Part shown: positions 10,901-32,758 of the stretch, in pieces
Layout: each line of letters starts with the position of its first letter
Position numbering within the stretch: position 1 is the stretch's first letter
Source: Patagioenas fasciata
Lineage: Eukaryota; Chordata; Aves; Columbiformes; Columbidae
Reading direction: 5' to 3'
Length of the DNA stretch: 64,000 bases
Assembly: GCF_037038585.1 (NCBI RefSeq)
Contig: NC_092523.1
Span: 501,001 to 565,000, forward strand
The notes under the pieces: generated by a model
Databases searched by the model: none
Told to the model about the DNA's origin: nothing
Seen by the model: the letters and a program-made list of their open reading frames with translations, nothing else
Position numbers and translations under genes: made by a program

Positions 10901-13900
10901 CTGCCAAGCCCTTGCCCGCCCGGTGTCAGCGTGAACACTGATGAACGGGCCGGGCAGCAGGGGCGGCCCTGGAGCTCCTGGCAGGACGCTCAGCCCCAGC
11001 CGGGCAGTGCACTGAATGATGTGCAGAAAAAAGCAGTTACACCGGTGGCCCTGCCCTGCAGACCCTGCACCAGCACAGCACCAGCCAGCACTGAGATGCG
11101 GGGCAGCACCTGGGGGTCCTGTGTACCCAGATTGCTGCTCATTTCCCCGCTCCGGCACAGTCGTGCGGCTGCTGGGGCGCTGAGGCAGAGAACAGCTCTG
11201 TTTCCTCTCCGAGGTGCCCCAGCACAGGTGACACCGGTGCTCAAAACTTCGCATGGGCCTGGGACACTGTCCCAGCATCACAAGCAACGGAAGGAGCCAG
11301 GGGGATGACCCGGTAACGCAGGGTCCGTGTCCTCTCTGCACGGGCAGGGGTGGCGCCGGTACCAGCGCTCAGCCCGCGGAAGGGAAGCAAGCACTTCTAT
11401 TTTAGCGCATGCAGAACTGAAAGTGCAACGCACACAGCTCAGCAGCCGCGTCCCCTAAGCAGCAGCAAGGTCCCCTAAGGGCCTGTGTGGGCGACGTACC
11501 ACGGTGCTGCACCAAACAGCAAAGATCCTCCTCCGGGAAAGCCCCACGTGAACCAAGAGCTCCCAAATGCCTGGCCAGAGCTGCTTCAGCAGACCCTGCA
11601 CCGGTGTGTGAGGGTCTGTACTGGGACAGGAGCTGGAAGCTGTTTCTCAGGGTTGCAGCAGAGTGTCTTGCAGAAGACATACAGACATTTCAGCTTAAAA
11701 CTTGGCCAGACGAGCTTCTTAACTAGAGACAAGGCCCAAAAAGGGCCATCAGGCACCCTTGTCTGGCCCCTACGCAGAGTGTGGGCTGCTGAACCCTCGT
11801 GTCCTTAGCGCTCACAGCAGCAGCTTCTGCTCAGCTAAGGCCCCACACGGCAGGTTCCGGCCGGGGAGCAGCCGATCTGCGGGAGCCCCCCAGCACTGCG
11901 CGTGACTCTTCAAAAGAAAGAGAAATTCTGTTCTGAGCTCCAAACAGCTTCTAGCCCCAGCTCCCAAGCTACTGGACCCTGCCTACCCTCTGGGCAGCAA
12001 CAAACGGACACAAACTCATACTCCCCGTGCAGATGACCAGAAATCACAATTAAGGGTCTTCAGCTCTTTGCAGAGAGGCCACAGGCAGCTCCTGCGCCTC
12101 CCGCTCCAGGCCAGGCCTCTGCAGAGCACACGCCGTCCCTGCAGTCTTTCGCCCACTGCTCCCCAGGCTGCCCATGTCCGGACCCCAGGCACGCCGGCTG
12201 GCAGCGACCGCGCGCACGCCCTGCTCCGAGCGGACGGCACCCTGCACCACCCACAGGCACATGCTGTGTTCCTGACCCGGGAAGAAGGCTGCAACGCTGT
12301 CCGCACCAAACAGACACGAGCATGGATGTGCAGCGATTTCCAGTATGACAGCAGTGCCTCTTGTCCTGGTCAGCAGGGCTGTTACTGCACAGACAGCTTT
12401 GGCTTCACAGGGACTGCTGGGAGATGCAGCGGTGCAGCCAGCCATCCCGCAGCGCAGCCCAGCGCTCGGAGCCTGCAGCTGGCTGGAACACAACCCAGCG
12501 CCCTGCAGACACCAGGAGCGAGAGCAGGACGCCATGGGGCAGGGCACGCACTGGCTGCTCTGCAGGGCCATGGGGATCACCGTGCTCATGGGCCACCTGT
12601 GGTGCAAACTGCCCTCGCAGGGAAGGCTGCAGAGCTGACACACGGGCACAGACAGAGGACAGGGAGCTGAAGGGCTGTGCCACAGGCCTGGCACTGATGG
12701 GGCGTTCCCAGCAGCAGGCGGGAGCGAGACCCAAGGCTGGGGCTGGGCAAGGGGCTGCAGCGGCCCTGCTGCTGGTGCTGCCGCCCGGGAGCAGGGACCC
12801 AGCTCTGCAACGCACTCAGCCCCGCACCGCGCTCAGCCTCGCACCGCGCTCAGCCCCGCTTCCACTGCCGCCGCGGCAGGAAAGACAGCGGTGCCTGTGC
12901 CAAGAGGAAACGCTGCTCAGCCACCGCTGGCCCCGCGGGCTCTGTGCGGGGCGTGAGGACAGGCTCCCCGCTGGGGGAAGAGCTCCGCTTGAAATTCTGA
13001 GCTGCAACCCAGAATTACTGTCGGCATGCCAAGGAGTCCCATAGCCCACCCAGCTGCTGGCACAGCAGGAACCATCAAGAGGGAATTAGAGTCCCGGGGC
13101 CTGGGACCACCCCTATGTGCCATGGGTCCCCTCCCGCTGCGTGGGAAGGGGTCTCACGGAAGCCCCAGCACCCCCCAGCCCCCTCCTCCCGGACACCCCG
13201 CCCGGGGCTCACCGGGAAGGCGATCTCGCACAGCTTCGCCACCCACTCCTCGCTCTGCTGCTTCTCGGCCGCGAAGAGGTAGCTCTTGGCGCTGGTGTCC
13301 AGGCGGAACACGGCGGTGCCGGCGCGGGGGCCGCTGTCGGGGACGGGCCCCACGCTGGTGCAGTCCGCCAGCCGCACCACGGTCCGCGCCAGCCGCCGGC
13401 TGCCCAGCTGCTCCGGCGACAGCGGCTCCTTGCAGTCGAAGAACTCGAGGCGGGCGACGCCGTGCTGGCTGGCGGGGTACAGCACGAACCAGCTCCGCTT
13501 CCAGCGCTGCAAGCGGCGGCGTCACCGCGGGCCGGCCGGCGGATCGCGGGGGGGCCGGGGCTGCCCCCGCCCGGCCCGGCCCGCGGCAAGAGACCGGCCC
13601 CGCCCGCCGGGCCCCGTGCCAGACAGCCCCGGGGGGCCAGGCGCGGTCCCTCGGCCGCCGCCCGGCCGGGCGCGGGTACCGGCGGCCGACAGAGCTCCGG
13701 CCCCACTTCCCCAATCGCCGGGCGGCGCCCGGCAGCGCGCACAGCCGGGGCGGCCGCGGGCGGCGGGCCCGGCCCGGGAGGCGGCATGGGGGCGAAACGG
13801 AGCCCGCCCGGCCCCGGGAGAGAGGAGGGAGGGAGGGAGGGGAAGGCGCCCACCCGGCCCGGCCACTCCGGTCCAGTCCCGCCGCGCGGGCCCGTCCCGG

Positions 13901-14007: not shown

Positions 14008-14239
14008 CCCGCGGCGCCGCGACACGCGGGGACACGCGGGGACACGCCGCGACACGCCGCGCGCTTCCGCACGCGCCGCCGGGGGGCGGGGCCGCGCGAG
14101 GGACGCACGTGCGGGGGAAGCGAGGGAGGGAGGGAGGCGTGTGCGTGCGCGCGGCGTGTGGTCACGTGTGCTGCCACGCCCTGACACGTGCGCGCGGGGC
14201 CCGGGGCTGCGGGGGGTCGGGTCGGGTCGGGGGTCCGGA
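14008..14239 (-). promoter_or_regulatory. DOK1 CpG-island promoter region
   Basis: Dense CpG sequence upstream of the DOK1 start codon, continuous with the CpG-rich first exon and intron (13500-14100). It includes repeated GACACGCGGG motifs at 14028-14060 and a CACGTG E-box near 14163. No TATA box is evident. The transcription start cannot be placed from sequence alone. Confidence 0.6.
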
Positions 14240-14480
14240 GGGGCCCTCGTGTGTCCGGTGGGGCCCTCGTGTGTCCGGAGGGAGCCTCGTGTGTCCGGTG
14301 GGAGCCTCGTGTGTCCGGTGGGAGCCTCGTGTGTCCGGAGGGGCCCTCGTGTGTCCGGTGGGGCCCTCGTGTGTCCGGTGGGGCCCTCGTGTGTCCGGAG
14401 GGGCCCTCGTGTGTCCGGTGGGGCCCTCGTGTGTCCGGAGGGGCCCTCGTGTGTCCGGAGGGACCCTCATGTGTCCGGTG
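14240..14480 (+). repeat. 20-bp minisatellite upstream of DOK1
   Basis: Twelve tandem copies of a 20-base unit, GGGCCCTCGTGTGTCCGGTG and variants (gccctcgt or gagcctcgt; ggtg or ggag). It begins about 230 bases upstream of the DOK1 start codon. It is open in four frames, which creates false coding signals on both strands. Confidence 0.95.
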
Positions 14481-16349
14481 GCCCCTCGCGGCTCTGGCCC
14501 GTGTCCCTGCAGCCGCGGCCCCGGATAGGAGATAAAAAAGGAAGTGAAGAGTTAAAGGCCGCTGAGCTCAGCTCCGGAGCCCAAGGAAACCACAGAACAG
14601 ATACCCAGGTGCTCCCACAGACAGCAGGGAACGCGAAGGCTCAGCAGACACACCCGTGTGCGCGCAGCCCTGCCTGACCTCCTACAGTCTCTGTGGACAG
14701 GGCAACGTCACCCACGTCTCCCCCTCCGGCCGAGCCGTTTCCCGGGCACTGCGGCAGTTCCGGGGGCCCCGGGTGCTCCCAGCGCTGCCCGCTGCAGCGG
14801 CCGCTCCGGTCTGCCCGGCAGTCAGGCTGAACTCGGCGCTCCCGGTGGGACTCGGCTGGGGCAGGTGGGGCATGAGGCAGAGAGCAAACACCAGCGTGGC
14901 CTGTGCCAGCAATCCTGGCATGTCAGTAACCAGCCCCGGTAAACCGGGCTGGCTTTCCTGCCCTGCACCCAGCACACGGCCGTTATTGCTGTATGCCAGT
15001 CTGGTTAGGAGGTTTTATTGAGATAATAAATGTGGGTTTATTGCTGTGTGCGAGTCTGGTTATGACACCCTGTTCAGGGGCTGGGGCTCTGCGTGCTCCC
15101 TCTGTGCTGCGCCGCTGTGCTTCGGGCAGACCTTGCTGGCCTGTGTGCCCTCTGATGGCCTCTTCCCTGCCCGGCCACTACTGCTCTGTGTTCCTGGGCT
15201 CCTGGCTGCTTTGATGGCCCAGATTCCATGACTTGGCTTCCTAGCACTACGTTAACCTGCAAAGGGAAGAGGGAGATACCACTGATCCTGATTTTCTAGG
15301 CCTGTGATGCCCACTTGTCCCATGTGAGCCAATGCCTGTGGGCCAGAGGAAACAGCTGCAGGTGGTGACAGCTGCTGGGAGGGTACTTGGTAGTGCCTCG
15401 CTGCAGGCAGAAAGCACATCTGCTTTCTCCTGCCTCCCTCCCTCGCACTTGCATGGTAAAAAAGTCAGGTATTTGCTGTCTGGGTTAGGAGGCCGTTTGG
15501 CTGTGGAAGGCTGCAGAACACAGGTCCCCCTTACAATGAGACTGACAAACAGGAAAAGCCATCAGAAAAACAGCCGAGCAAGTCAGTGATGTCAAACACG
15601 CAGTCCTGTGGTGACTGCAGCTGCAGGATGGGGAACTAACGTGGCACTTCTGCAAACCAGGACCTGTGGGAAGGAGCGGATCACGAGCCAAACGTGTCAG
15701 CAGCTCAGAGTAGCGCCAGAAAGGCGAATAGCAGCCTGACGTGCACGATCAGGGGAGGCACATGCAAGGCACATGGAACAGTCCCGATCCCATTAACCTG
15801 GCAAGCCAGAGGCACCACAGCCTGGGCCCGGCATGAGGCACCACAGGCAGGTGCCAGCTCAGTGCCGAGCGCAGGGGGACAATGACATCCGGCCGCTGGG
15901 GACAGGGCTCGGACTTGGGGCCGTTGGGTCCTGGAAGCTGCAAAAGCAGGAGAAACAACTGCCCTGGGCCTGCACCGGGAGAACCCCGCGGCGAGGGACA
16001 CCTGGGGACGCGGTGCCGGGGCTGACACGGGCACCGGGCTGCGGGCCGGGACCAGGCGCTGCCCTGAGCTCCCCCCGGTGCCAGCGCGGCGGGGTCGGCC
16101 CGGCGGGGCTGCCGAGGGGCTGCCGAGCCCGCCCCGGGCCGCGGCCCCGCTCCGCACAGCACCGGGCAGCTGCGCCCGCCCGATCCGCAGGAGGCTGAAG
16201 CGCCCGGCCCACCACGGGGCGGTTCGGCCCGGGGGCTACGCGGGTCCCCCGCCCTGGCCCTGCTGCGGCGCCACCCGCCGGGGCCGCCCCCTGCTCTGCG
16301 GCGGGGGGGGGGAGGGCAGGCGGCGGAGCCGCTCCCCCGCCAGTCCCTG
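14481..16349. other. Divergent gap between DOK1 and the OGA paralogue
   Basis: Mostly unique. An imperfect duplication of about 33 bases (TATTGCTGT..GAGTCTGGTTA) lies at 14980-15013 and 15033-15066. CpG density rises again from about 15960 towards the downstream gene. No exon of either neighbour was recognised. Confidence 0.65.
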
Positions 16350-16695
16350 TGCGCACCCTCCATTCCTGTGCTCACCCTCCATTCCTGTGCTCACCCTCCA
16401 TTCCTGTGCGCACCCTCCATTCCTGTGCTCACCCTCCATTCCTGTGCGCACCCTCCATCCCTCCGCGCGTCCTCCATCCCTCCGCACACCCCTCCATCCG
16501 CACACCCTCCATCTCTCCGCGCGTCCTTCCATCCTTCCGCTCACCCCTCTGTCCTTCCCTGCATCCCTCCGCGCACCCCCCCCGTCCCTCCGCGCACCCC
16601 CCCGTCCCTCCGCGCACCCCCCTGTCCCTCCGCGCACCCCTCCGTCCCTCCGCGCACCCCCCCGTCCCTCCGCGCACCCCTCCGTCCCTCCGCCC
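16350..16695 (+). repeat. Two adjoining C-rich 19-bp minisatellites upstream of the OGA-paralogue start
   Basis: First block, about 16355-16475: six copies of a 19-base unit around CATTCCTGTGCTCACCCTC. Second block, about 16565-16695: about seven copies of a 19 to 20 base unit around CCGTCCCTCCGCGCACCCC. The second block ends 15 bases before the proposed start codon at 16710, so it probably forms the 5' UTR or core promoter. The repeat is open in the frame of the gene back to an ATG at 16368. Confidence 0.93.
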
Positions 16696-16709
16696 GCCTC
16701 AGCAGCGGT

Positions 16710-19700
16710 ATGGCGGGGCGGCCGCGCTTCCTCTGCGGCGTGGTGGAAGGTAGGTAGGTCCCTCCGGGGCCCCGCCCGGTCCACTCGGAGCGAACAGGGC
16801 CAAGAAAGGCCGCCGGGACCCGAGCCGCGCCCGAGCCCCCGGGTGTTGGGGAGCCAGGGATCGGGCCCCTGCACACCCCTCACCTCTGCCCGGGGGTGAT
16901 GGACCAGCACCCCTGCTGACGCTGCCCAGCTCCTCCCCACATCACTGCTGCATCCCGCAGCCATTCCCGGCTTCAGCACCCTGAAGGGTTTCTCCCTGCC
17001 CGGGGCATGGGAGCACATCCCGGGTGTGCCCGTCCTGTCCCTGCCCGAGGACAGCGCCCGGCCCGGCAGAGCCGGGTCTCTCAGGACGGCTCCATGTTGC
17101 TCAGCCCCGTCCTGCCCGCCCCCCAGCTCCTGTTTGTGCAGCATCTCTGGAGTGGGGCCAGGCCTGACACCCGCTGGCAACAGCATCTCTGCTCTTCCCG
17201 GCAGCAGTGTCCGCCCTGCCCGGGAGGAGCAAAACCACCGTGCAAATACACACAAAATAAACAGAAAGCAGAGGGCTGGGGAAGTCGATAGTGAAAAGAA
17301 ATACGAGTCAGACAAGAGTCATTGATACAGGAAAGCTGACCTGGGAAGGACAAGGACACAGATGCTGCCAGCAAAGCCTCTCCAGGAGGAGGTGCCTGGA
17401 GGGGGAGGATGGAAAGGCTCCCTCACCCCGGTAGCACAGGCGTTTTCGACAGGGCTGCTGCTGGCAGGGCACGCGTACAGGGTGGGCAGCACACTCGCAA
17501 GATCCTGTCAGTTCACAGCGAAGGGTGAGTGAGGGACTTGCAGGCAGGTGCTGTACAGGGACTCCTGGGACTTCACTGTGAGCTGCGCAGGGGTTGCGGT
17601 GGGCTGGGAAATGGAAAATCTATTTATCATGGAAATACTTTCTTTGGGTAAAATGTTTGATCCCTGAGTGGCCACATATTTGGCGCTGTGCACAGTGTGG
17701 GACAAATATATATTATTTCAAAGTAGATGGAACAGTGTACATGTTCAAGCAGGCAGAAAAAGAAGATAATGGTCAGTGCGTGCTGTGGTGCGACGACCGC
17801 GCCGTTGCCCATGGCTGGCGCTGGGCCGTCGGGGCGGCTCCTCCCGCGGGAGCCGGGCAGCAGGGTCTCCCCTGGACGGACCAGCTCCGGCGCACTTGGG
17901 TGCTGGGGAAATGTGGCTGTTTTCTGGGCCTGGTGCCGGATGCCGAGAGCCGGTCCTTTCTCCCAGACTGCAGGGGGAATTGCGATCTGCCCTTGTGCGG
18001 TGCACAGTTCGGCAAACGCATCCACTTCCCTGAATATCTGCTCCCGTTGGCCTCGTCTGCTGGAAAGTGCATTGACTGGTTCAAAAGTTGCCCACAAAGC
18101 AGAGCCCATCCAAATCTAGGAAGCTGCCTCGATAGCTCGGTGCCAGCACTGTTCAATACGTAATGTATTTTCTGTGAGACTTCACATTGCAGCTGCCGGC
18201 TCTTGCAGAGACTTGAAATGTTAAAGATCCTTCTCTTGCTAAATTTCAGGTCGATGCTGGAACACTTACAGGTTCCTCTTAACCTTGTCTTTAAGAAGCT
18301 GTCAAATCTGTATCTCACCAGAGACATTTACCTCCCTGTTCTCCCATTGTCCCCAAGTGAGCTTGCTGTCCACCAGGTGTTCTTTCTCGCTGGCTTTGCA
18401 CACAACTCTGTGCCTCCCAGGTCTTCCTACATGCAGAAATAGGACGGGCCCTGCCCTGGAAGCGGTTCGGTGGGGGAACGTGAGCTGCACGCCCAGCAGT
18501 GCCCGCGCCCGCTGTCCCCAGCCCCAGAGCACAGGGCAGGCTGCTGTCAGACAGCAGTGCCCGCAGCCACAGAGCCTGCAGGGAGCAGGGCTGGAAATGT
18601 TCAGAGCACAGGGTGAGCTGCTGTCAGACAGCAGTGCCCGCAGCCACAGAGCCTGCAGGGAGCAGGGGTGGAAATGTTCAGGAACACTGGGGAATTTGCT
18701 GAGTCCAGATCTGCAGTTCCTGCATTCAGTTCTGTTGGTGTGAACCTTCTGGAAGGGCAATGTCCTTGCGGGCGCCGACGCGGGTCTGTTAGCAGACAGC
18801 TGGCAGGGCCGCCTCCTTGAGGGCTGTCCCTTTCTGGATTTTCCCTTGCAAGCTCATGGGGAGGGGGTTTTCCAGCGGAGGCCAGGCAAGGTGTCTGTGA
18901 AACACCTTGTGGAGTCACAGTCCAGCACTCGTGGGCATCCCGGAAGGCTGTGTGTGTGTTCTTGCCCTGAACGCTCGCGGGCGGGCAGGGACACCGCCGA
19001 GTCCTGCCCCGCCGCGGCGCAGGTGTGTGTTCGCGGCGTGGAGGGGAGATCTGTCACCGCGGTTTTGGTGCAGTTTGATTTTGCGGTGATTAAAGACAGA
19101 GAGAGCAGCTTTTACGGCCCACGTAGAGTGATGATGATTTGCTTCACGCAGCCTGACACTACACAGACACAGGGAGATGCAAAGAGAGACAGAACCGGTC
19201 TCTGTAAAGAAGAAAATCCCCAGGCAAAAAACTCTGTGATGAATGTACAATAGTTCTGTGCCTTGGTGCACCCCAAATTCGTGCTCGAGTGCCCTAGAAC
19301 CCAGCCAGCCCTCAGCCATCTCCTCTAGGCTCAGTTTCACTGTGCAAATCCCCCCCAGGTTAGAGCCACCCTGTGTAATTCTTGCCAGCTGCCTCTTTCG
19401 GGAAGTCTGGCAGCGCAGGCACCGTACCCTGGATCGGCAACCCGTGCCCAGCAAGGCCCTATCAGGATAGCGTTTCTGACGTGCCCAGAGGTGAACAGCT
19501 GGCGGACATCTGGGTTTAAGAGCGGCCACCTGGGGACAGCACATAGAGACTCGATTTTAAGGCAGTTACAAATGCATTTTGGTGTTGTCTTTTTTTTCCC
19601 CACTCTTACAGGTTTCTATGGGAGACCATGGTCTGTGGAGCAGAGGAAGCTTCTCTTTCAATGGCAAGTACCCCGAACTTTCCTGTCTGGAGGTACCTGC

Positions 19701-22700
19701 CTGTGGTGGGGTGACGGGGTGGAAGGCGGAGTGCTGCGGAGGCAGAGCGGGGAGGACGCCGTGCGGACGGAGGCCCCTGCGGACGGCCAGCCCTGGGACA
19801 CCGGGGCAACGGCAGCCGGGGAGCTCAGGCTGCTCCCGGTGCCCCCAGTGCGCTCCTGCGCCCCGGGCCCAGCCCAGGGAGAGCGGACGGACAGGCGGCC
19901 CGAGGACGCCCGGACAGATGTGGGCTGTGCTGCTCTGTGCCGGCAGAGGGTGCTGGGACTCTGCCACAGCCCAGCTGCAGCCAGATGTGCTGGGATGGGG
20001 ACCTGGGGATGGGGCCTGGAAGGGGCTGGGGGGAGCGGGTGGGCACCAGCCCCTGCTGCAGGGGGGTGCCCAACTGGCACGGGAGCTGCAGCGAGGGACA
20101 GGGGACGGGGAGGGACCTGCTGCCATGGGGCAGCGATGGAGTCAGGGGGACAGGACCTGCTGCCATGGGGCAGCGATGGAGTCAGGGGGACAGGACCTGC
20201 TGCCATGGGGCAGCGATGGGGTCAGAGGGACAGGACCTGCTGCCATGGGGGAGCGATGGGGTCAGGGGGACAGGACCTGCTGCCATGGGGCAGCCATGGG
20301 GTCAGGGGGACAGGACCTGCTGCCATGGGGAGTGGTGGGGTCACCATGAGTCCCTGCATGGAAGGATGTGGGCAGGACCTGCCACTGGCTGGCAGTGACA
20401 GTTGTGTTGGGATGGGAGCTGATCTGTTCAGGGGAGGCACAGGGGTGTCCTGGCAGCTGCTGCCCCAGCACCGGCCGTGGGCGGGATGAGCTGCTGGGAC
20501 AGGACCAGTGACAGACTCGGGCCCCGCAGGACCCGCTGTGGGCAGCACCATGGCCATGAGCCAGGCAGTGCACTGCCAGTGTGGACAGTGACATGGACAG
20601 CGTGCTGGGGACGGTGAGGAGAGCGTGCTGGTCACAGAGTGGGCAGTGTGCTGGGGACACTAGGAGAGCGTGCTGGTCACGGAACGGGCGGCGTGCTGGG
20701 GACAGCGCGGGCAGTGCAGTGTGCTTGGCACAGACAGCGCAGTGTGTTTGGCGCGGGCAGTGCACTGGCAGTGGGCAGTGCAGTGTGTTTGGCGTGGGCA
20801 GTGCACTGGCAGTGGGCAGTGCAGTGTGTTTGGCACAGGCAGTGCAGTGGTTTTGGCGCAGGCAGTGCACTGGCAGCGGACAGTGCAGTGGTTTTGGCGC
20901 GGGCAGTGCACTGGCAGCGGGCAGTGCAGTGTGTTTGGCACAGGCAGTGCACTGGCAGCGGACAGTGCAGTGGTTTTGGCGCGGGCAGTGCACTGGCAGC
21001 GGGCAGTGCAGTGGTTTTGGCGCAGGCAGTGCACTGGCAGCGGGCAGTGCAGTGGTTTTGGCGCAGGCAGTGCACTGGCAGCGGGCAGTGCAGTGTGTTT
21101 GGCGCGGGCAGTGCACTGGCAGCGGGCAGTGCAGTGGTTTTGGCGCGGGCAGTGCACTGGCAGCGGGCAGTGCAGTGTGTTTGGCGCGGGCAGTGCACTG
21201 GCAGCGGGCAGTGCAGTGGTTTTGGCACAGGCAGTGCACTGGCAGCGGGCAGTGCAGTGTGTTTGGCGCGGGCAGTGCACTGGCAGCGGGCAGTGTCGCC
21301 GCGCCGTGTGCCGGTGGCTGTGCTGGTGCTGGCACTGGCAGCCGAGCACCGTGGGGGAAGCGTGCTGGCCGTGCTGTGGCAGCGCTGGTGACACTGAGCT
21401 GGTCACGAGTGCAGGACCAGAGAGGCAGATACAGGAAAATGCACCTTAGAAACTTTGGGGAAACATGCGGAAAGGAAACCAGAATGTGGTGTTTCAAAGT
21501 ACGCCGGGGTGAGAGGGTCTGACGGTGGCCTTGCCTGGGACAGGACTGGGATGTGGGAGCGCTGTGATCATCAGTGTTTTCTGCTCTGGAAAGAGACAAG
21601 ACGAGGTGTCTGCATCATGTGGGGCACAAAGTGCTTCCTGGTCTGTTCCATTGTGGGAACATGTAAAACATTGTCTGCTGAGGAGGATAAATAAAAATAA
21701 ATGAGTATATCAGACGGGTTCCATAGAGGGGTGCCAGGAGAGCTGTTTAGGTAGGCGTCTGTCTCATCCCAATAATTTCCGATGAGTCTGGGATTACCGT
21801 GGAGATTCTGGAAGGAATCTGTGCTCTCCGAGGCCAGGGCCTGGTGGCGGTGCAGTCTGGTCTCCTGAGCACACGGGCTCTGGTCTCCCTCTGGCTCCCT
21901 TCCCTTCCCTGCAGCTGCAAGCGGAGCCGCTGCAGAACTGGGCAGCTTTCCTCCCCGTCTCGGCCCAGCACGTGTCCCCATGAGTCACATCTGGATGCCG
22001 CTGTGTCCCCGGTGTGGGTGGCTCAGGACTCAGTGCAGGCCCTGGCAGAGCCGTGGTGCAGCCGCAGGGGGGTCTGGCCTGATGGAGCCCACAGCCGGAC
22101 CCAGAGCTGCAGCACACGGAGCTGCAGCACACGGAGCTGCAGCACACAGGGCTACAGCACACGGAACGGTAGCACACGGAGCTGCAGCACACGGAGCTGC
22201 AGCACACAGGGCTACAGCACACGGAACGGTAGCACATGGAGCTGCAGCACACGGAACTGCAGCACACAGGGCTACAGCACACGGAACGGTAGCACACGGA
22301 GCTGCAGCACACGGAGCTGCAGCACAAGAGGCTGCAGCACACGGAGCTGCAGCACACGGAGCTGCAGCACACGAGGCTGTAGCACACGGAGCTGCTACTG
22401 CAGCGCCAGCCCCATTTGTCTCCTTGGCCGCTTTGTTCCCAGTCTCCCCGGGATCCCCTGTCCGCCCTGAGGCTGCTCTGGCCGCTCGCCCCTCCTCCAT
22501 CCCTTGCTCAGGACATGGAGCTTTTCATCATCACAGACTTTGTCAAGTGGTTAAAACAGGCGGTGTAGGCCAAGCTGGTCCCTCCCACTCACATTTTCCA
22601 CAGCAAGGGTGTTAACCCGCCCCAGGAGACAATGTCCGTCTGGTCTCCGAGACCTTCTCATCCAGATGTGCGATCTTCCCAGGGGTCCCTAACCAATACA

Positions 22701-25700
22701 AGTTGTTGGGCTTGGCGCTGGGAGCACCGGGATGGAATCGCGTCTCCGCTGTGCGTGGGCCGGGGCTGGCACTGCGGGACCCTGCGCAGATCCGTGGAGG
22801 GACAGGGACAGGGGCTCTTGGTGCTGTGGTGGCCCCTGCCCCGGTGCTGCTTTGCAAAGAGCCCCTCTGGAGCCGCGGGTGACCCCTTGCCCTTGCACAG
22901 GCTGAAACGCCGGGAGCTGAACTGCTACATGTACGCGCCCAAGGACGAGCTGAAGCACCGGCTGCTCTGGCGAGAGCCCTACACAGAGCACGAGGCAGGT
23001 AGCGGCTCCGCTGGGCCCCATCGGCGGCCGCAGGGTCTGCGCGGGGAAGCAAGGTCTGCATGCCAGCCAGGGTCCCGCGGGCTGTTACCCCTCTTCTTGC
23101 CCAGAACCTGCCCGTTGCGGGCAACCCCAGACCCTGCCGGTGCAAGGAGCCTCCCAGACCCCATCGCACGGCATTGCCCACAAGCCCACCCAGCACAGGG
23201 AGCTCCTCACGGGGCTCTGGCAATGCTTGAATGTGCCAGGGCCTGGAGACCATTGCAGAGAGCCCTCTGTCTCCCAAGGGGCTGGAAACTCTCCCCTGGG
23301 CACCTCCAGGTGCTCTCTGCTGCCTCCCGATGCCCTCAGATCCTTCCTTTTGGGCCACTGTGGTTCCACCTCCCTCTTCCCGTGCTCACAGCACCCGCTT
23401 TGTCCCCAGCCCGCATGCGGTCTCTCATCAAAGCCGCCCAAGAGCAGGGTGTGGAGTTTGTTTTTGCCATTTCTGCTGGCCAGGACATGGTGTTTTCAAG
23501 TGCCGGGGATCGGCTCCTGCTGCAGCAAAAACTCAGGCAGGTACCGTGGTCCTTCTTTCACCCGCTGCGCCAGGGCAAGGGGCACAGGAGCTTGTGCGTG
23601 AGCCCCATGCCCGCCCCAAAGGCTGGTGGGGTCTGTAAACCCCTCCTCCTGCTGCCTGTTGGGGAGCAGCTGTGGGGTGCCCGGTGGCAGATGTGCTGTC
23701 CCCATCACGGTGACAGGGAGCTGAGGGCTCCCCCGGTGCCTGACTGTGCCTGGGCAGCCCTGGGGCAGGAGAGGGACCGGTCAGGCCCCAGGGCTCGCCG
23801 GGCAGCACCGGAGGCCAGTGCGGGTGGTGCTGACCCCGGCTCCTCAAGGAGGGTGGAGAGCCGCGGGCACAGTGGGTTTGCTCTGCTGGCAGCTGCTCCT
23901 GCCCGCGGCACAGCCCGGCGGCCGCTGCCCGCGCCATGCCTGGCCACCCCGCCAGCCAACGCGGCCGTGCCCAGCTCTGCGGCCGTGGCTGTGGGGCTGG
24001 CGTGTGCCCACGGAATGGCTGGGCCTTGTGCGAGGGGCCGCGGCGGGGGCTGCTCTGCCCACTGCGCCCACCTGGGCGCTCAGACCCCTGCCCGGGCAGC
24101 GGGGGCTCGTCCAGGGCTTGCTGCCTCCCTTCTCTCTGCTGCCCAGGGGTCCCTGCAGTCCGTGCCCATGCCCACAGGTGGCTGCCATGGGGTGCCACTC
24201 CTTCGCTCTGCTCTTTGATGACATCGACCCCTGCATGTGCCAAGCTGACAGAGACGTCTTCCCCACCCTGGCGCAGGCTCAGGCCTCTGTGGCCAACGAG
24301 GCGTACCAGGAGCTGGGCCAGCCCTCCATCTTCCTCTTCTGCCCCACAGGTACCGCCTGCAGCAGTGCGGCCCCAGACCCCCATCCCTGGGGCCCGGTGC
24401 TTGACTGGCCCTGGCCCCCCACAGCAGAGGGGGCTGGCGGCACCCAGCGCCCGTGCCTGCTGGGAGCCTCCTGCCCCGTCCTGCTCCTGCGGGAGCCCTG
24501 GGCTTCTCAGGGCTGGGACGGGGCCAGGCGGCAGATGGGCTGGCACAGCAGTAGCCGTGCACGCTTGTTCCCATGCACACGTTCCCAGCCCCAGCCTGCT
24601 GGTCCCAAGCAGCCTCTCCTCTCCTGGTCTCTGCCCCACGGGGCTGCTCTCTGCTCTCTCCACAGAGTACTGCAGCTCCCTGTGCTCCCCCAGCCCCAGC
24701 CAGTCCTGCTACTTGCTGACACTTGGCCAGGAGCTGCTCCCGGGGATCGGCGTCATCTGGACAGGTGGGCACCGGCGCGGTGCTGGGGGTGCCGTGGGGC
24801 TGACAGCGGGTCGGGCTGTGGGTCGGGCTGTGGGTCGGGCTGTGGGTCTGCTCTGCTGGCTGGGGAGCGTGTGCTGGGGGGTGATCCCCGTCCCCGCGCT
24901 CGGTGCCCGGCCACGTGTGCGTCCCCGTCTGCATGACGGGCCGTGTTCTGCTGCTCCACGCGTGTCCGTGCTGTGGGGCTCCAGGCCCAAAGGTGGTGTC
25001 ACAAGAGCTGTCGGCCACGCTGCTGGAGGAGGTGGAGGGCGTCCTGCGGCGCCGCCCCGTCATCTGGGACAACCTCTACGCCAACGACTACGACTGCAGG
25101 CGTGTCTTCCTGGGCCCCTACACGGGACGTGCCCCCGGCCTCATGTCCAGGCTCTGTGGACTGCTCCTCAACCCCAACTGCGAGCTCCAGGCCAACTTCA
25201 TCCCCATACACACCCTGGGCAGCTGGTTTCAGAGCGAGCTGGGGAGCTGTGCCCGCCCCGATCACGCAGGTAGCTGATCCCAGCGCACCAGGCGGCTCTG
25301 CACACGGCGCCTGGGCTGGCAGGGGTGCGTGCCCCCAGGACACGGCCCGGCCAGCGCTGCCGGTCTGTGCTTGGCTCTGAGGCTTCCGCGTGGCAGCGGG
25401 GTGGGGTGTCACCGGGGTGGGGTGTCACCGGGGTGGGGTGTCACTGGGGTGGGTGTCTGTCTCACCGGGGTGGGGTGTCTCACCCAGATGGGCATCAGCC
25501 GGCACCCCTGGGCATGGCATCTGTCCTGGGCGCATCTCCCTGGGGTGGCAGGAGGGACTGCCTGCCCTCAGTGTGGTGTGTGACAGCTCTGTCAAGCGAA
25601 GAATGGGGCTGCCCAGGCTGACGAGCACCGGTTCCTTAGGGATGGAGATTACAGTGGCCCTGAGGGACAGCCAAGGCCCACAGAAGGGGGCGTATAGCCC

Positions 25701-28700
25701 TCAGGAGGACACATACAGCCCCCAGGAGGCCCTGGAGCTGGCGCTGCTTGACTGGGTGGCCGAGATAAACCAGCAGGCCTTGGAGCCAGGTAGGTGATGA
25801 ACTCTCACTGTGCAGCCCCCTCAGCCCCCCCGGAGTGCTGGTCGGGCTCTGCTGGGCGCTCGGTGGGTGAGGGAGCCGCATCCCTGCCCGTGTGGATGGG
25901 GCGCTGTGGCTGGTGCTGCAGCACGGTCTGTGCGCAGAGGTGGGCGGCTGTGCGTGCCCCTCGTGCCGTGCTGCCCCGCGGGTGCTGCTGCCCCAGCCGC
26001 ACCACAGAGGGGATGTCCTTGGCTGGCAGCGTGTTGGCCCAGGCTGGCACGGCTCTGGAATAGCGGGTTCAGCCAGGAGCAAGCTTGGTGCTTCGCAGTG
26101 TTTGCCTCTGCAAAGCCTCAGCAGCCACGGCGGCCTGAAAGGCACAGAGCAAACCAAAGCCCTCCGTCCTGGTAGCTCCCTGGTCCCGCCAGCTTGGAGA
26201 TGGAGCTTCCCAGCACAGCCGCCCCAGGGCTGTCCTGCCCGTGGGCAGCAGGTTCCATGCGGGTGCCAGCAGGGCCTCCCCTTGCTCCTTTCTGCCAGGA
26301 GGAAGGGCCCCGGGACACCCCAGCATCAGCCTGAAGGGAGGAACGAGGCTGCAGCCCGGCTCAGGAGGGCAGGAGGTGGTGTCTGACCCCCAGCCCCACG
26401 ACTGTGCTCCTGGTGGGGCGGAGCAGTGTGGCCGTGAGCCCTGCGGCGTGGCACCGGGGCCGGGATGGGGGAAGGTGACCTCGGAGCCTGGGAAGGGCAG
26501 CGGGAGCAGGACCTCTGCTGACGGTCAGCAAAGCCCCACAGGGGCTGGGGACCCGCTCACCGCAGGGAGCAGAGAGAGCTGCAAGCCCTCTGCTCTGCGC
26601 AGCGCGGCCGGGAGCACCCCGTCCATAGCAACCCCGCTGGCTACGGAGACCCTGCACAGCCCAGGCCCTGCCGTGTGCCGCAGCAACAGGGCCAGTGCCA
26701 GCCAGAACCTTCCCCTTCCCACCAGGGATGCCAGGACAGGGGGTGGCAGCCCCTCCCAGCCCCCCTGTAGTGCCCAGCCCGAGGCCAGCAGGGCTGACAT
26801 GTCCCAGACACCCCCAGGGCCAGGAGCTGGTGCCAGCCCTGGCTCCCCAGCCCCACTCCCCAATGGGGCTGGTGCCAGCCCTGGCTCCCCGGCCCCACTC
26901 ACCGATGGGGCTGGTGCCAGCCCTGGCTCCGTGGCCCCACTCCCCGATGGGGCTGGTGCCAGCCCTGGCTCCCTGGCCCCATTCCCCGATGGGGCTGGTG
27001 CCAGCCCTGGCTCCCCGGTACCCTGGACCCCAGAGGAGGCTGGGTCCGGCACCATGGCCCTGCTGACTCTGGAGAAGGCTGGGTCTGGCCCTACAGAACC
27101 ACTGACTGCCAAGGAGGCCAGGTCCAGCCCCACAGCCCCGGTGACCCCAGAGGAGGCCAGGTCCACCCCCATGGCACCAGTGACCCCAGAGGAGGCCAGG
27201 TCCAGCCCCACAGCCCTGGTGACCCCAGAGGAGGCCAGGTCCTGTCCCACAGCCCTGATGACCCCAGAGGAGGCCAGGTCCAACCCCACAGCACCACTGA
27301 CGCTGGAGGAGGTGCGGATGCTGGTAGAGCTCTTCTACCTGCCCTACCACCATGGGTCGCAGGCGCAGCATCTCCTGGAGCACTTTCGGTGGCTCTGGGC
27401 AAACAGCCTCAGCGTGGGTGTCCCGGCGGCAGCAGACGATGCCAGTGGGGTAAGGCTGGTCCAGGCGCCGCTGCGGGCCGGTGTCCACCATGGTTGCACT
27501 GACGCCGTCTGTCCCCAGGGCACGCGGTGGCGCGGCCGAGCCCAGTCCTTCCAGCGGCTCTGCGCGCAGATCTGCCGCCTGCACAGCCGCTTGGTCAGCA
27601 GCGCCGGCCGGGCGCTGCTCTACGACCTGCACCGCTACCTCTGGGACATCCGCAACGTGCTGCTGGCCGCCAGCGCCTTCGTCCTCTGGCTGGGTGCGTG
27701 TTGATGCCAGACCTGAGCCAGCCTCGGGGCCCTGCAGTCCCTGTTTGCACCAAATCCAGACACCCTGAAGGGCAGCGGCCCCTGGGCACTGTGGTGCACC
27801 CGAGCATCTGAAGCTTGTTCTGTGGTGATCCACTGTTCCTCCCCGTAAGGAGGTGAAGGTGCCTGGGACCCCTCGCAGCAGCCTGGGGTCCCTGTGTCCA
27901 GCTGGGGGTGGCAGGGTCTCTCCGGGAGAACAGCTCCTGCTGGGCTGTACCCATGTAACTGCCTCGCCTCCCTTGCAGATGGGCATCTCCTCTGCGACCC
28001 CGACCCCAAGGGCACCTGGGGAAGCTGCTTTGGCTGTGAGTACCAGTGCTGCCCAGTTCCCCTCCCGCCTGCTGCCCGGTCACCTCCAGCCCCGCAGCCG
28101 TGGGGCTGCCCCCCCGGCACCCTGCGGCCGGCAGAGCGGGATGGCCACGAGGAGCCCGGCGCCCTGCATGCTCGGTACACCGAGGCAGGATGGCACCGTT
28201 GCGGGGGCAGGGCAGGCACCGGAGCGGCTCTTCACCATCTCTCAGTCTGGAGGAATGCCTGTTCCCAGGGCACGCTTCCTCAGGCCTTTTAATCCAGGCA
28301 CCTCCTGTTCTTTCCGGTTGAAGGGATCCAGGAGCCATGGGAAGCCATAATGCCCTGGGTGGCAGAGATGAGGCTGGATTTTGAATGCCTGTGCATCACT
28401 TTGGGAGCCCCAGCTCCTCTGGTTTAGGGTTCCCTAGTTGCTCTGTGAGCCTTGTTATCTCCTACCAGCCAGCAGCTGTTACCAGATGACAACCTGAGAG
28501 GGTCTCCAGGTCCAGTGTGGGACGGGCCGTGTGCCTCGAACCACTTGTGCAGGGCAGCAGGCGCACGCCGTGCCAGGCTGTACCCCGGAGCTGTCTTACC
28601 TTACACTTCATGGAGGCAAGATCACCCCTTTCCCCGTTCCCCACTGCAGGCCTTGCCGCGGAAGGCGTGCGGGTGGCTGCCGCGGCCAGGCGAGGTCCGG

Positions 28701-31700
28701 GGACAGACCCTTGGAGCTGTGACCAGTGTGCGGCACGACATTGCTGCGCAGTGGAGGCTGATCTCCCTCAGCCCAGCGGGTTTTTCGTTCACCTCACATG
28801 TATCTGTTGCCTGTTGCCTCCAGGGTGCAAGAGCATCACTGCCCCGACCCTGCTGGGGGGGGACGCCGAGCCCTGGGCACGCCGTGGGGGCCTGTTTGGA
28901 GAACTGCAGGTGAGAGCCTGCGCCAGGCTGTGGGGCTGAAGGAGCCGCTGGGGAGCTGGGATCCCAGCTGCTGCTCCCGGCCCTGCCTTTGGGTCACGGG
29001 AAGGCAGAGGTGCCCTGGGCCTCTGTGCCTTGGCTGCAGCTCCCGAGGCTCAGGGTGCCTCAGAGGGACCCTCCTCCTGCTGCTTCCGGACAAGCTCTGG
29101 AGCCGGGACAACCTGCTCCTTGACGGGCTGTGTCTCTTCCAGGCCCTGCTGCCCGTGGGGAACAGCTGTGACCTGTTCTACCACCCACCTCCGCTCTTCC
29201 CATCCAGCCAGCTGTACCTGCTGCGCCCGCTGCTGCCCCCGGACAAGGTGAGACCGCGGCACGAAGGGGTGGCCGGAGCTCACCTCGCGTGGTCTAACGA
29301 GGCACGTGCTCACCTGCTGCTGCCGCAGAGCTGAGCTCGCAGTGCAGGTGATGCAGGTGGGAAGGGACGTCTGGGCTCCAGCCTCGCTCAGAGCAGGACA
29401 GCCTGGGCAGGTCACCCGGGGCTGTGTCCGGCAGCGTGTCAGCCCCGGCAGCCTCGGCAGGGACCGTCACCTGCCCCTCTGGCAGCCGGAGAGGGAGGCC
29501 CGGCCGAGGTGCAAGCAGCAGGAGCCACGGATAAACCAGCACAGAGTTGGGGTCACCAGGTTGCGAGGGGCTCTCCAGATCAGCCCCCGCCCTGGTCTCC
29601 AGCGGTGGCCACAAGCAGAGGCCAGGAAAGATCCAGAACAGACAAGGGTGGATGGCGAGCTCCTGCAGCTCTGGGCACGGCCCGAGCCCGTCCGGGTCCA
29701 GCTCCAAATCAGCCCTTTCTTCAAACGCTCACCCAGTCTATGGGGCAGTTCCCAGTGGAGAGGCAGCAGCCTCTGTCAGCTGTGACCTGCTTGCTGCCAG
29801 CCCTGCCTGTGGCATCGCAGCAGTTCGATGGGACGGGGAGGGAACGGGAGAATTTGGAGGTGGGGAGGCACAGGAGTTAAACTGCTGCTGAATCCAGCAG
29901 AGCCCTGGCTCACCAGGCACCACAGTCTGCGCCAAGCACCGCGCTCCTGGCCCTGCCGCCTCCCCTCACCAAAGGCAGAGCTGGCGCTGCAGATCACGGG
30001 CACAACTGCACATCCCTGCTCATACCGCGCCCGGCAGCGTGGAGCTGCGGCGCTCACAAATAACAGAGCGGGGCTGCCGGCACAGGAGAGCGAGTTATAT
30101 GATCAGACTGCAGCTGCCAGCACTTCCATTGCAAGAGCTTTTCTTCGGTTGCCTGTTGTCAGTTTTAATCTGATCAGGCTAAACTTTAACAAGCTGAATG
30201 TCTGTGTTCAGTGAAACTTTGAGAGAAAACCCAGCTCAGCACTTCAGCCGGCTCTGGAGCGGCGCTCAGAGGAGCTCTGTCCTGCCCCGGCTCGGCGCAG
30301 GGCCTGTGCTTTGAGAAGCAAGGCTTCCAGCAGGGTGCTCTTTCTGCTGGTCCCACAAGCAGCAGCAAACTCAACTCTGACCAACACAGGAAATGTTGAC
30401 ATGTCCCACTTTGCACATGCTCTGTGGAGACCTGGGTTTCAGGGCTGGTTTTGCTGCTGTTGCTCTGAGCATGCTTGGTCCCGGCTGAGCAGCTGCCGCT
30501 CCGGGATGCGGGCTGCAGCGGCAGCCTCTCCTGGGGAAGTGGTGCCGTGCTGTGGCAATGGCCCTCAGGCCAGCAAGGCGGTGCTCAGTGCATTGCTTGG
30601 CACAGATGCCTGTGCCCTTGGACGGCTGAAGCGCATACCCTTGTACCTTCCCTGGCCAGGACGCGCGGGATGCCACAGCCCTGGCTGCGCTCCGTTAGTC
30701 ACCCTGGGCAGCTGCTGGTCCCATGGCCCGGCAGGGATGGGGCAGGGATGGGGCAGGGATGGGGCAGGGCCAGTGGGGCTGAGGTGGGTCTGCATCTTCC
30801 AGGCAGAGCTTTACCGGATGTGCCGGGAGAGTTTGGACTGTGACCCCAGAGTCGCAGAGATCCTCGTGGCCCACCCCGACCTCCTCGGTGACAGGTGAGC
30901 CGTGGCCCTTCGGGGGCTCCCTCTTGCCAAGCCCGGCCATGCGCAGGGCGATGCTGAGCTGTGGTGGGAGGCAGCGGCCCCTCCTCTCATTGCTGTGGGG
31001 ACCAGTGCTGCCTGCAGCACGGCTGCCATGGCCCTGCCGTGCAGGAGGGGACAGGGAGGGCAGTCCCTGCGCCAGTGTCCGTGGGGGTGGACCCGCTCTC
31101 AGCCTGGCTGTGGGGGCTGCAGGGGCTCCCCTTGGCCCAGGCTTTGCTGGGGTGCTGTCCCGCCAGGGCAGGAAGGAGGAGGCTGGGCTGGGCTGGACAG
31201 GGCTGAGCTTCCCTGGGCCAGGCTGGGCTCCAGGTGCGGCTCAGCGGTGCTTCTGCTCTGGCTGGCAGGTTGCTGGGCAGCTTCCTGAGCCTGAGCCCCG
31301 AGTACACGTTTGTGCTGGAGGATGAGGGTGGCCCATGCGGCTACGCAGCCGGAGCACTCTGCGCTGAGGACTTCCTGCAACAGCGAGACAGCAACTGGCT
31401 ACCGGCCACACGGCACAAGTACCCCCGAGACCTGGGCACAGGGACCCCAGCTCCAGGACAGGTGAGGGGGCACCAGGAGCAGAGGGGAGCGGGTATGGGG
31501 GTATGGAGGGAGCTCCCTCACTTGTGTTTGTCTCCCGCAGGATGCCCTGGAGGAAGCACTGCTCTTCTTCCACACAGAGCCGCTGGCTGTGCCCCTGCCC
31601 GTGCTGCGGCGCTTCCCCTCGCTGGTGCAGCTGGGCACGGCCCCCCGGGTACAGGACGTGGGGGCCAGCCGCAGCCTGGCCATCTGCCTGCTCAGTGCGC

Positions 31701-32183
31701 TCAGGGCCAACGGTGAGCACGGCCCCCGAGCCGGGGCTCTGGGGTCCCCTTCATCCTGCACGGCCCTGTCCCGCCTGCTCCCCTGCGCACTGCAGGGCCA
31801 GGGGCCAGCCCCACCTGCACCCCACCCCTCAGCCCTCCCCGGGGCTCCCTGTCCCATCCCTGGCTCAGTCTGGCCCCGGCATGCCCACCAGGGCACACGG
31901 ACCCGTGCCTCAGGGCATTGCTCAGGCACCCAGTGCCAAAGGGCTGTGGAGAGGCTGCCCCCCTGGGGGAGGGGGTCCCAGCCTCTGGCCCCAACCCCAG
32001 CACTGGGGTCCTGGTGCCAGGGCCTGACCTCTCCCCTCCTTTCCAGGGTCACGGGGAGTGTTTTGCCAGGTCAGTGCCACTGACCAGCAGCAGCTGAGCT
32101 TCTACAGCGGACTGGGCTTTGTCGCCCTGCCAGTGGCCTGGGACAGCTCTCCTGGCACTCGGCTCCTGGGACGTCTCCTCTGA
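16710..32183 (+). CDS. OGAL: O-GlcNAcase paralogue (OGA-like), GH84 plus acetyltransferase-like domain
   Basis: Sixteen exons join in frame to 1045 residues: 16710-16749, 19612-19663, 22901-22998, 23410-23540, 24178-24349, 24666-24764, 24985-25269, 25640-25789, 26299-27449, 27519-27693, 28824-28909, 29143-29247, 30803-30894, 31269-31461, 31541-31712 and 32047-32183. The GH84 domain (residues 5-300) matches human OGA with a constant offset of 53: [21 protein letters not shown] (Lys45), LLFDDID (catalytic Asp121-Asp122), EYC (Tyr166), [11 protein letters not shown] (Trp225, Asn227, Asp232) and Asn260. One pocket change is Leu170 where human has Phe223. A repeat-built disordered part (343-680), the stalk helices and a GNAT-like C-terminus ([21 protein letters not shown]) follow. 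The expected role is removal of O-GlcNAc from Ser/Thr of nuclear and cytosolic proteins; activity itself is inferred. The symbol is provisional: I recall a fish paralogue called ogal/mgea5l but could not test orthology. Confidence 0.93.
16750..19611 (+). other. OGA-paralogue intron 1
   Basis: 2862-base intron. Positions 17600-17760 and 18150-18330 are unusually A/T-rich for this window and could be old transposon remains or regulatory DNA; neither was recognised. A 76-base direct duplication (18528-18603 and 18604-18680) contains CTGCTGTCAGACAGCAGTGC. Open frames at 17594-18163 and on the opposite strand match no known family. Confidence 0.65.
19664..19669 (+). other. Predicted GC-AG splice donor (GCAAGT), OGA-paralogue intron 2
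   Basis: Ending exon 2 after CAATG and starting the intron with GCAAGT gives TG|G = Trp31, then LKRREL. This keeps exact length agreement with human OGA (LFRRLQKWEL against LFQWLKRREL) and the reading frame. The nearby GT at 19668 would add four bases and shift the frame of exon 3. GCAAGT is the standard context of minor GC-AG introns. Confidence 0.75.
20113..20343 (+). repeat. 40-bp minisatellite in OGA-paralogue intron 2
   Basis: Six copies with 40-base spacing (cores at 20116, 20156, 20196, 20236, 20276 and 20316), each holding GGACCTGCTGCCATGGGG. Copies are over 90 percent alike by eye. Confidence 0.95.
20585..21300 (+). repeat. About 41-bp GCAGTGCACTGGCAG minisatellite in OGA-paralogue intron 2
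   Basis: About fifteen copies in which GGGCAGTGCACTGGCAGCGG alternates with linkers based on GTGTTTGGCGC or GGTTTTGGCGC. The 5' end is degenerate. The array has no stops in three plus and two minus frames. Its GCGGGCAGTGC core recurs in the array of the last LOXL3 intron. Confidence 0.95.
22108..22395 (+). repeat. 15-bp GAGCTGCAGCACACG minisatellite in OGA-paralogue intron 2
   Basis: About nineteen copies of a 15-base unit, with variant units (gggctacagcacaca, gaacggtagcacacg) repeating in a regular order. This gives a higher-order period of 60 bases in the first half. Confidence 0.93.
25398..25490 (+). repeat. Short GGGGTGGGGTGTCACC repeat in OGA-paralogue intron 7
   Basis: Five to six imperfect copies of a 16 to 18 base G-rich unit in the 370-base intron between exons 7 and 8. 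Confidence 0.85.
26823..27032 (+). repeat. Coding minisatellite, 42 bp x 5, in OGA-paralogue exon 9
   Basis: Five exact 42-base steps from 26823 encode the 14-residue unit [14 protein letters not shown] with variants (PLTD, VAPL, LAPF, PVPW). The unit is Gly/Ala/Ser/Pro-rich and certainly disordered. It is in the reading frame of exon 9 and lies between the catalytic domain and the stalk. Confidence 0.92.
27027..27299 (+). repeat. Coding minisatellite, 39 bp x 7, in OGA-paralogue exon 9
   Basis: Exactly seven 39-base units encode [13 protein letters not shown] and variants. The array ends at codon 27300, where the conserved stalk begins with [12 protein letters not shown]. The unit start TPEEAR resembles TLEEVR, so the array may have grown from the edge of the conserved domain. 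It creates a regular acidic/basic Ser/Thr/Pro-rich spacer. Confidence 0.93.
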
Positions 32184-32752: not shown

Positions 32753-32758
32753 ATTAAA
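32753..32758 (+). terminator. OGA-paralogue polyadenylation signal ATTAAA
   Basis: ATTAAA 570 bases after the stop codon. No AATAAA occurs earlier in the 3' region, and the LOXL3 CpG island begins about 160 bases later. Confidence 0.6.

Follow-up and report, generated by a model that had tools for sequence, protein, structure and literature searches.

The genome of Patagioenas fasciata (1.45 Gb) carries a gene for an O-GlcNAcase (OGA)-type protein between DOK1 and LOXL3, within the 64,000-nucleotide stretch analyzed here (the window; NC_092523.1, positions 501,001 to 565,000, cited as C4:501001-565000). We refer to this gene as OGA2 and to the OGA gene on contig C11 of the same genome as the main OGA. 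OGA2 is of interest because it contradicts the single-OGA rule stated in the literature. Unprefixed coordinates are window positions, all others are given with their contig (C4, C11, C18, or C33), and papers are cited for those parts of their text that were covered.

The OGA2 model was built from homology to the main OGA together with splice signals. It comprises 16 exons on the + strand, from an ATG at 16710 to a stop codon that ends at 32183, and thereby reproduces the bounds of the initial annotation, which had joined sixteen exons in frame into a 1045-residue OGA-type protein. The spliced sequence is 1045 codons plus the stop (3,138 nt) long, with a frame that is open throughout; of the 15 introns, 14 have GT-AG boundaries, the exception being intron 2 with GC-AG. 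Exon 1 (16710..16749), set by the splice and homology model, carries the start codon, and exon 2 (19612..19663) ends at the GC donor. Exons 3 (22901..22998, with Lys45) and 4 (23410..23540) encode GH84 sequence and are followed by exon 5 (24178..24349) with the catalytic pair Asp121-Asp122, exon 6 (24666..24764) with the Tyr166 region and Leu170, exon 7 (24985..25269) with Trp225, Asn227, Asp232, and Asn260, and exon 8 (25640..25789), in which the catalytic core ends. Exon 9 (26299..27449) encodes a long linker rich in Pro, Ala, Gly, and Ser (P/A/G/S), with in-frame tandem repeats of 42 and 39 bp, and then the start of the stalk. The stalk continues through exon 10 (27519..27693), which contains the Trp at human position 645, and exon 11 (28824..28909), where Trp802 of the stalk arm corresponds to human Trp679. 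Beyond exon 12 (29143..29247), the pseudo-acetyltransferase (pHAT) domain is encoded by exons 13 (30803..30894), 14 (31269..31461), 15 (31541..31712), and 16 (32047..32183, with the stop codon); the exon 13 segment is two residues longer than in the human and main OGA, a length shared with Trichoplax.

The Pfam family NAGidase (GH84, PF07555) matches OGA2 residues 9-281 with an E value of 6.7e-74, which excludes a chance match, and it is the sole family at E ≤ 1. NCBIfam, a prokaryote library, gave no match for any of the four proteins submitted. The domain order is GH84, long linker, stalk, and pHAT. OGA2 aligns with the human OGA chains 6hki and 5m7r in two stretches, human residues 56-392 (GH84) and 518-899 (stalk plus pHAT), and its C-terminal part matches the pHAT sequences of both human OGA and Trichoplax (chain 6r45). 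The gap-free offset of 53 to human numbering given in the initial annotation is confirmed by these chains and holds from OGA2 residue 3 to the end of the catalytic block. All nine active-site residues placed by the initial annotation are likewise retained: Gly14, Lys45, Asp121, Asp122, Tyr166, Trp225, Asn227, Asp232, and Asn260, equivalent to human 67, 98, 174, 175, 219, 278, 280, 285, and 313, respectively. Eleven OGA residues are described as contacts of docked inhibitors (PMC6499197), and 10 of them, including Trp645, are the same in OGA2, the exception being Phe223, which is Leu170. The residues V255, Y286, and D287 belong to the OGA dimer (PMC10618255) and W679 to the stalk arm (PMC12494797); in the sequence alignment, these dimer residues are retained, as are W645 and W679 of the stalk.

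The substitution at Phe223, also identified correctly at the outset, had been read as a possible sign of altered substrate choice, a suggestion that proves weak. Leu170 is not diagnostic because the same position is Arg in Trichoplax OGA, which is reported to be functional, and as evidence for new substrates it is unsupported. Across human positions 221-225, OGA2 differs at four of five residues, and Trichoplax OGA differs from human at all five. Over 237 columns of the catalytic domain, OGA2 retains 111 of the 145 sites common to human, main, and Trichoplax OGA, compared with 30 of the 92 other sites. Differences between OGA2 and the main OGA number 93, 62, and 191 at codon positions 1, 2, and 3, respectively (280 codons). 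As a pattern of substitution, this shows long purifying selection on the OGA2 catalytic domain in its past and says nothing about present-day selection.

A search of the whole genome with PF07555 gave six exon matches, three on C4 in OGA2 and three on C11. The latter locus was rebuilt as the main OGA (C11:28513091-28534597) with 15 exons seen; OGA2 is thus a second copy, as initially proposed, and not the only OGA copy in the genome. For the comparison of the two genes, 86 N were inserted for exon 11 of the main OGA, and the phases of its exons 12 to 16 rest on that assumed 86 nt. The start phase is equal in both genes at all 15 exons compared (trivially for exon 1, and with the assumed exon 11 for exons 12 to 16), exon length is identical in 10 of the 15, and the intron 2 donor is GC in both (19663 and C11:28517140). 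The matching intron phases and the shared GC-AG intron rule out a retrocopy, and that intron probably predates the OGA/OGA2 duplication. The two genes differ in the coding length of exon 1 (40 nt in OGA2 versus 187 in the main OGA) and in G+C content at third codon positions (0.78 versus 0.45). Across 280 columns of the catalytic block, the main OGA is 97.5% identical to human OGA, compared with 57.9% for OGA2; OGA2 and the main OGA share 57.1% identity there and 41.5% in the stalk plus pHAT.

A tree was computed from four sequences (human OGA, the main OGA, OGA2, and Trichoplax OGA, PDB 9qep); it is unrooted and has a single distant outgroup, the Trichoplax sequence (TaOGA), which covers part of GH84 plus the pHAT only. 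The best tree is ((human, main), OGA2, Trichoplax). The approximately unbiased (AU) test was applied to the joined data, the catalytic block, and the stalk plus pHAT: the p values were 1.3e-6, 0.019, and 2e-4, respectively, for the topology in which OGA2 is a lineage-specific copy and 0.001, 0.22, and 0.0014 for the third topology (human + OGA2). Informative sites number 31 (10 + 21) for the grouping of human with main, versus 1 and 0 for the alternatives. Pairwise identity to Trichoplax in the pHAT is 31.5% for OGA2 versus 25.4% for human OGA. On this topology, the split between OGA and OGA2 is older than that between human and P. fasciata.

The neighboring genes confirm the position between DOK1 and LOXL3. 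DOK1 lies upstream of OGA2 on the - strand (8876..13521; PH frame, 13075-13521; PTB half-exons, 10354-10506 and 8876-8989), and LOXL3 lies downstream on the + strand (45580..51000; SRCR, 45580-45700; lysyl oxidase exons, 46400-46636, 47214-47336, 47489-47638, and 50893-51000). Five of seven neighbor pieces checked were matched by Pfam; the LOXL3 stretch 46390-46640 had no match in the one frame scanned, and the lysyl oxidase match there comes from the genome-wide family search. An HTRA2-like motif near 59528 (- strand) had no Pfam match either, and HTRA2 is therefore not claimed. Along C4, the order DOK1, OGA2, LOXL3 (lysyl-oxidase-family match at C4:547400) is accompanied by TLX (C4:660935), PCGF1 (C4:675610), and LBX (C4:697620). 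The C11 locus contains a lysyl-oxidase-family gene (C11:27928831), KCNIP2 (C11:28504476), the main OGA, LBX (C11:28920128), and TLX (C11:28955702). PCGF1 and KCNIP2 were named by best PDB match; the LBX and TLX genes we take to be such from homeodomain signatures. Searching the genome with TLX produced 52 homeobox matches, with 95-100% identity only on C4, C11, and C18. Contig C33 carries a lysyl-oxidase-family gene (C33:5688185) and a DOK-type PTB gene (C33:6096888), and C18 carries TLX and PTB genes. One of the four lysyl-oxidase matches on C11, plus several elsewhere, reads through a stop, which is expected for exon-by-exon six-frame matching. Motif scans of C4:401001-685000 found no KCNIP, FGF8-type, or LBX gene, the LBX gene of C4 lying just beyond. 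Paralogous neighbors at both OGA loci are LBX, TLX, and the lysyl-oxidase family.

These gene sets fit the LBX/TLX paralogons described in 2008 (PMC2446394). That paper reports 'a further Mgea gene' of chicken in linkage with Aup1, Htra2, and Loxl3; in Table 1, it assigns 'Mgea2' of chicken and teleosts to the Lbx2/Tlx2 locus and Mgea5 to Lbx1/Tlx1. Human MGEA5 is given at LBX1 only, with mouse, dog, cattle, and opossum arranged as human and the platypus locus left unresolved there. The Lbx1/4 and Lbx2/3 paralogons are said to have arisen in the first duplication, which would date the OGA/OGA2 split. By position rather than by sequence, 'Mgea2' is very likely the same gene as OGA2; in the parts of the paper covered, it appears as an entry for synteny and trees, with protein, active site, and function undescribed. 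O-GlcNAc cycling is usually presented as the work of one transferase and one hydrolase, as in the introduction of a 2025 paper, and the same paper derives the vertebrate isoforms from 'a single OGA gene' (PMC12494797); according to a 2015 paper, metazoa 'possess a single oga gene', Trichoplax with two being the exception (PMC4424335). The earlier remark that animals are usually said to have one OGA is accurate for these sources. OGA2 is not wholly new, since it is in print as a synteny entry of 2008 that stands against the single-OGA statements of 2015 and 2025. Among the matches listed for open-licence PMC papers, the name 'Mgea2' occurred only in PMC2446394. No paper treating OGA2 as an enzyme was found in that open-licence set. 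Some bird genomes are expected to carry an automatic 'O-GlcNAcase-like' label.

Several further features lie in and around the gene. A CpG-rich stretch at 16000..17000 spans exon 1 (500-bp bins with GC of 0.74-0.78 and CpG observed/expected of 0.74-0.77) and is likely the promoter of OGA2. Two GC-rich minisatellites are present at 14233-14478 (20 bp × 12.3) and 16335-16693 (19 bp × 18.9; unit, 19-20 bp), the second sitting immediately 5′ of the OGA2 start codon and inside the CpG-rich stretch. An ATTAAA at 32753..32758 (+ strand), 570 bp past the stop codon, is a candidate poly(A) signal that may be due to chance, as there are seven AATAAA or ATTAAA motifs in 16001-46000. Between exons 10 and 11, an in-frame segment of 57 nt bounded by AG and GT (27979..28035, + strand) is a candidate cassette exon; it was left optional rather than required because OGA2 read without it aligns gap-free there with human OGA. 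On C4, G+C content per 10 kb rises from 0.50-0.56 (401-501 kb) to 0.61-0.73 (501-685 kb), with a sharp border at the window's left end. To the left of that border, near-identical translated stretches recur 10-14 kb apart (C4:403537, 413709, and 428079; C4:407366 and 421738), which suggests tandem segmental copies, and a tandem array at C4:493038-493452 gives translated matches every 138 bp in each frame.

We consider it highly probable that OGA2 is an intact ohnologue of OGA, lost in mammals, that most likely works like human OGA with altered linker control. The presence of LBX, TLX, and lysyl-oxidase-family genes in the vicinity of both OGA genes argues that it most likely arose in the early vertebrate genome duplications, and the protein as predicted is most likely a second O-GlcNAcase that is active and whose regulatory linker has changed. 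The initial annotation had left two origins side by side, an old copy lost in mammals and a local gain. The tree, the LBX/TLX/lysyl-oxidase neighbors, and the 'Mgea2' entry of 2008 favor the former, and we infer the mammalian loss from that literature; the introns, the tree (AU p = 1.3e-6), and synteny rule against a local or retroposed duplication. That OGA2 instead derives from the main OGA by a lineage-specific duplication or by retroposition and diverged fast is accordingly the least credible explanation, and we give it next to no weight. Its branch is long relative to that of the main OGA, and the catalytic block by itself yields only a modest AU rejection (0.019), but introns are present at matching phases, the AU value on the joined data is 1.3e-6, informative sites number 31 against 1 and 0, both copies have LBX, TLX, and lysyl-oxidase-family neighbors, and 'Mgea2' was already recorded in chicken and teleosts in 2008 (PMC2446394).

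Two further explanations concern the present state of the gene. OGA2 might be a recently dead gene, unexpressed and with its frame still intact, a view to which the minisatellite immediately 5′ of the start codon lends some color. We judge this very improbable given a 3,138-nt frame open across 16 exons with sound splice sites, a CpG-rich stretch spanning exon 1, and retention of catalytic-domain sites in a functional pattern (111/145 versus 30/92). Somewhat less remote, though still unlikely in our view, is an ohnologue that has kept the fold while hydrolysis is no longer its main job, either as a pseudoenzyme or because it adjusts the main OGA or OGT as a dimer partner. Identity to the main OGA of 57.1% in the catalytic block and 41.5% in the stalk plus pHAT, the replaced linker, and the changes at four of the five positions 221-225 would agree with such a role; some loss would then be expected among the catalytic pair, the sugar-binding residues, Tyr219, and the stalk tryptophans, all of which are retained, and the functional-reported Trichoplax OGA departs from human at all five of 221-225.

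Some observations weigh against an intact and active ohnologue. In the stalk, R586 is replaced by Trp and S652 by Leu, and a rough retention test restricted to 12 sites of the active center and dimer interface gave a borderline 0.04, so the argument for constraint relies on the broader site pattern. OGA2 may have relaxed or died recently without a break in its frame. In the main OGA, exon 11 was not found; a 125-base N run (C11:28527838-28527962) lies within the interval expected for it. The catalytic block alone separates the topologies more weakly than the joined data (AU 0.019 for a lineage-specific copy and 0.22 for human + OGA2), and an unrooted tree with a partial outgroup cannot date the split, so the dating is that of synteny and the 2008 paper (PMC2446394).

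Under the ohnologue interpretation, OGA and OGA2 would have split in the early vertebrate genome duplications, with OGA2 on the LBX2/TLX2 paralogon; OGA2 would have been lost by mammals and, in this lineage, would have kept its place between DOK1 and LOXL3. We infer its transcription, catalysis, dimerization, and changed control from the predicted sequence. Catalysis by the GH84 domain would be substrate-assisted, with Asp121 orienting the 2-acetamido group of the substrate as nucleophile and Asp122 acting as general acid/base, and the enzyme would hydrolyze O-GlcNAc on Ser/Thr of nuclear and cytosolic proteins. In a putative OGA2 dimer, the stalk arm with Trp802 would help shape the peptide cleft.

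The predicted change in control concerns the linker. In OGA2, it is 340 amino acids long with a net charge of -8, compared with 158 amino acids and -18 in the main OGA, and it consists of 16.8% P, 14.1% A, 13.8% G, and 12.6% S. It contains two tandem arrays (42 bp × 4.6 and 39 bp × 6.8) with periods that are multiples of three. The linker of human OGA includes Ser405, which is modified by OGT (PMC10618255, PMC12494797), and a caspase-3 site (PMC4424335); in the alignment of the 340-residue OGA2 linker, no counterpart of the Ser405 stretch or of the caspase site was recognizable. Because OGA2 has this longer, P/A/G/S-rich segment in place of the acidic linker found in the main OGA, its control by OGT and caspase should differ from that of the main OGA. 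Whether non-mammalian vertebrates at large possess two active O-GlcNAcases under separate control, the main one through OGT-Ser405 and caspase and OGA2 without that linker, we regard as an evenly balanced question. If they do, the 'one writer, one eraser' rule for O-GlcNAc would be the mammalian condition, and bird or fish work that targets the main gene only would remove part of the eraser activity. OGA2 would also offer a natural experiment, namely, a hydrolase without the OGT-contacting linker, and raises the questions of why mammals lost it and whether knock-outs of the main gene in birds and fish are incomplete.

Among known systems, human OGA (MGEA5; PDB 5m7r, 6hki, and 9qen) resembles OGA2 in the GH84-linker-stalk-pHAT order, the Asp pair, the sugar pocket, the dimer residues, and Trp645/Trp679. 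OGA2 is unlike it in its short N terminus, its long P/A/G/S-rich linker, and the changes of Phe223 to Leu, R586 to Trp, and S652 to Leu. The main OGA on C11 has in common with OGA2 its intron phases, 10 of 15 exon lengths, and the GC-AG intron 2. Trichoplax OGA (TaOGA54, PDB 9qep), called functional in PMC12494797 and PMC4424335, resembles OGA2 in domain order, in the active-site residues covered by the alignment, and in the longer pHAT segment, but its catalytic block is only 51.7% identical to that of OGA2.

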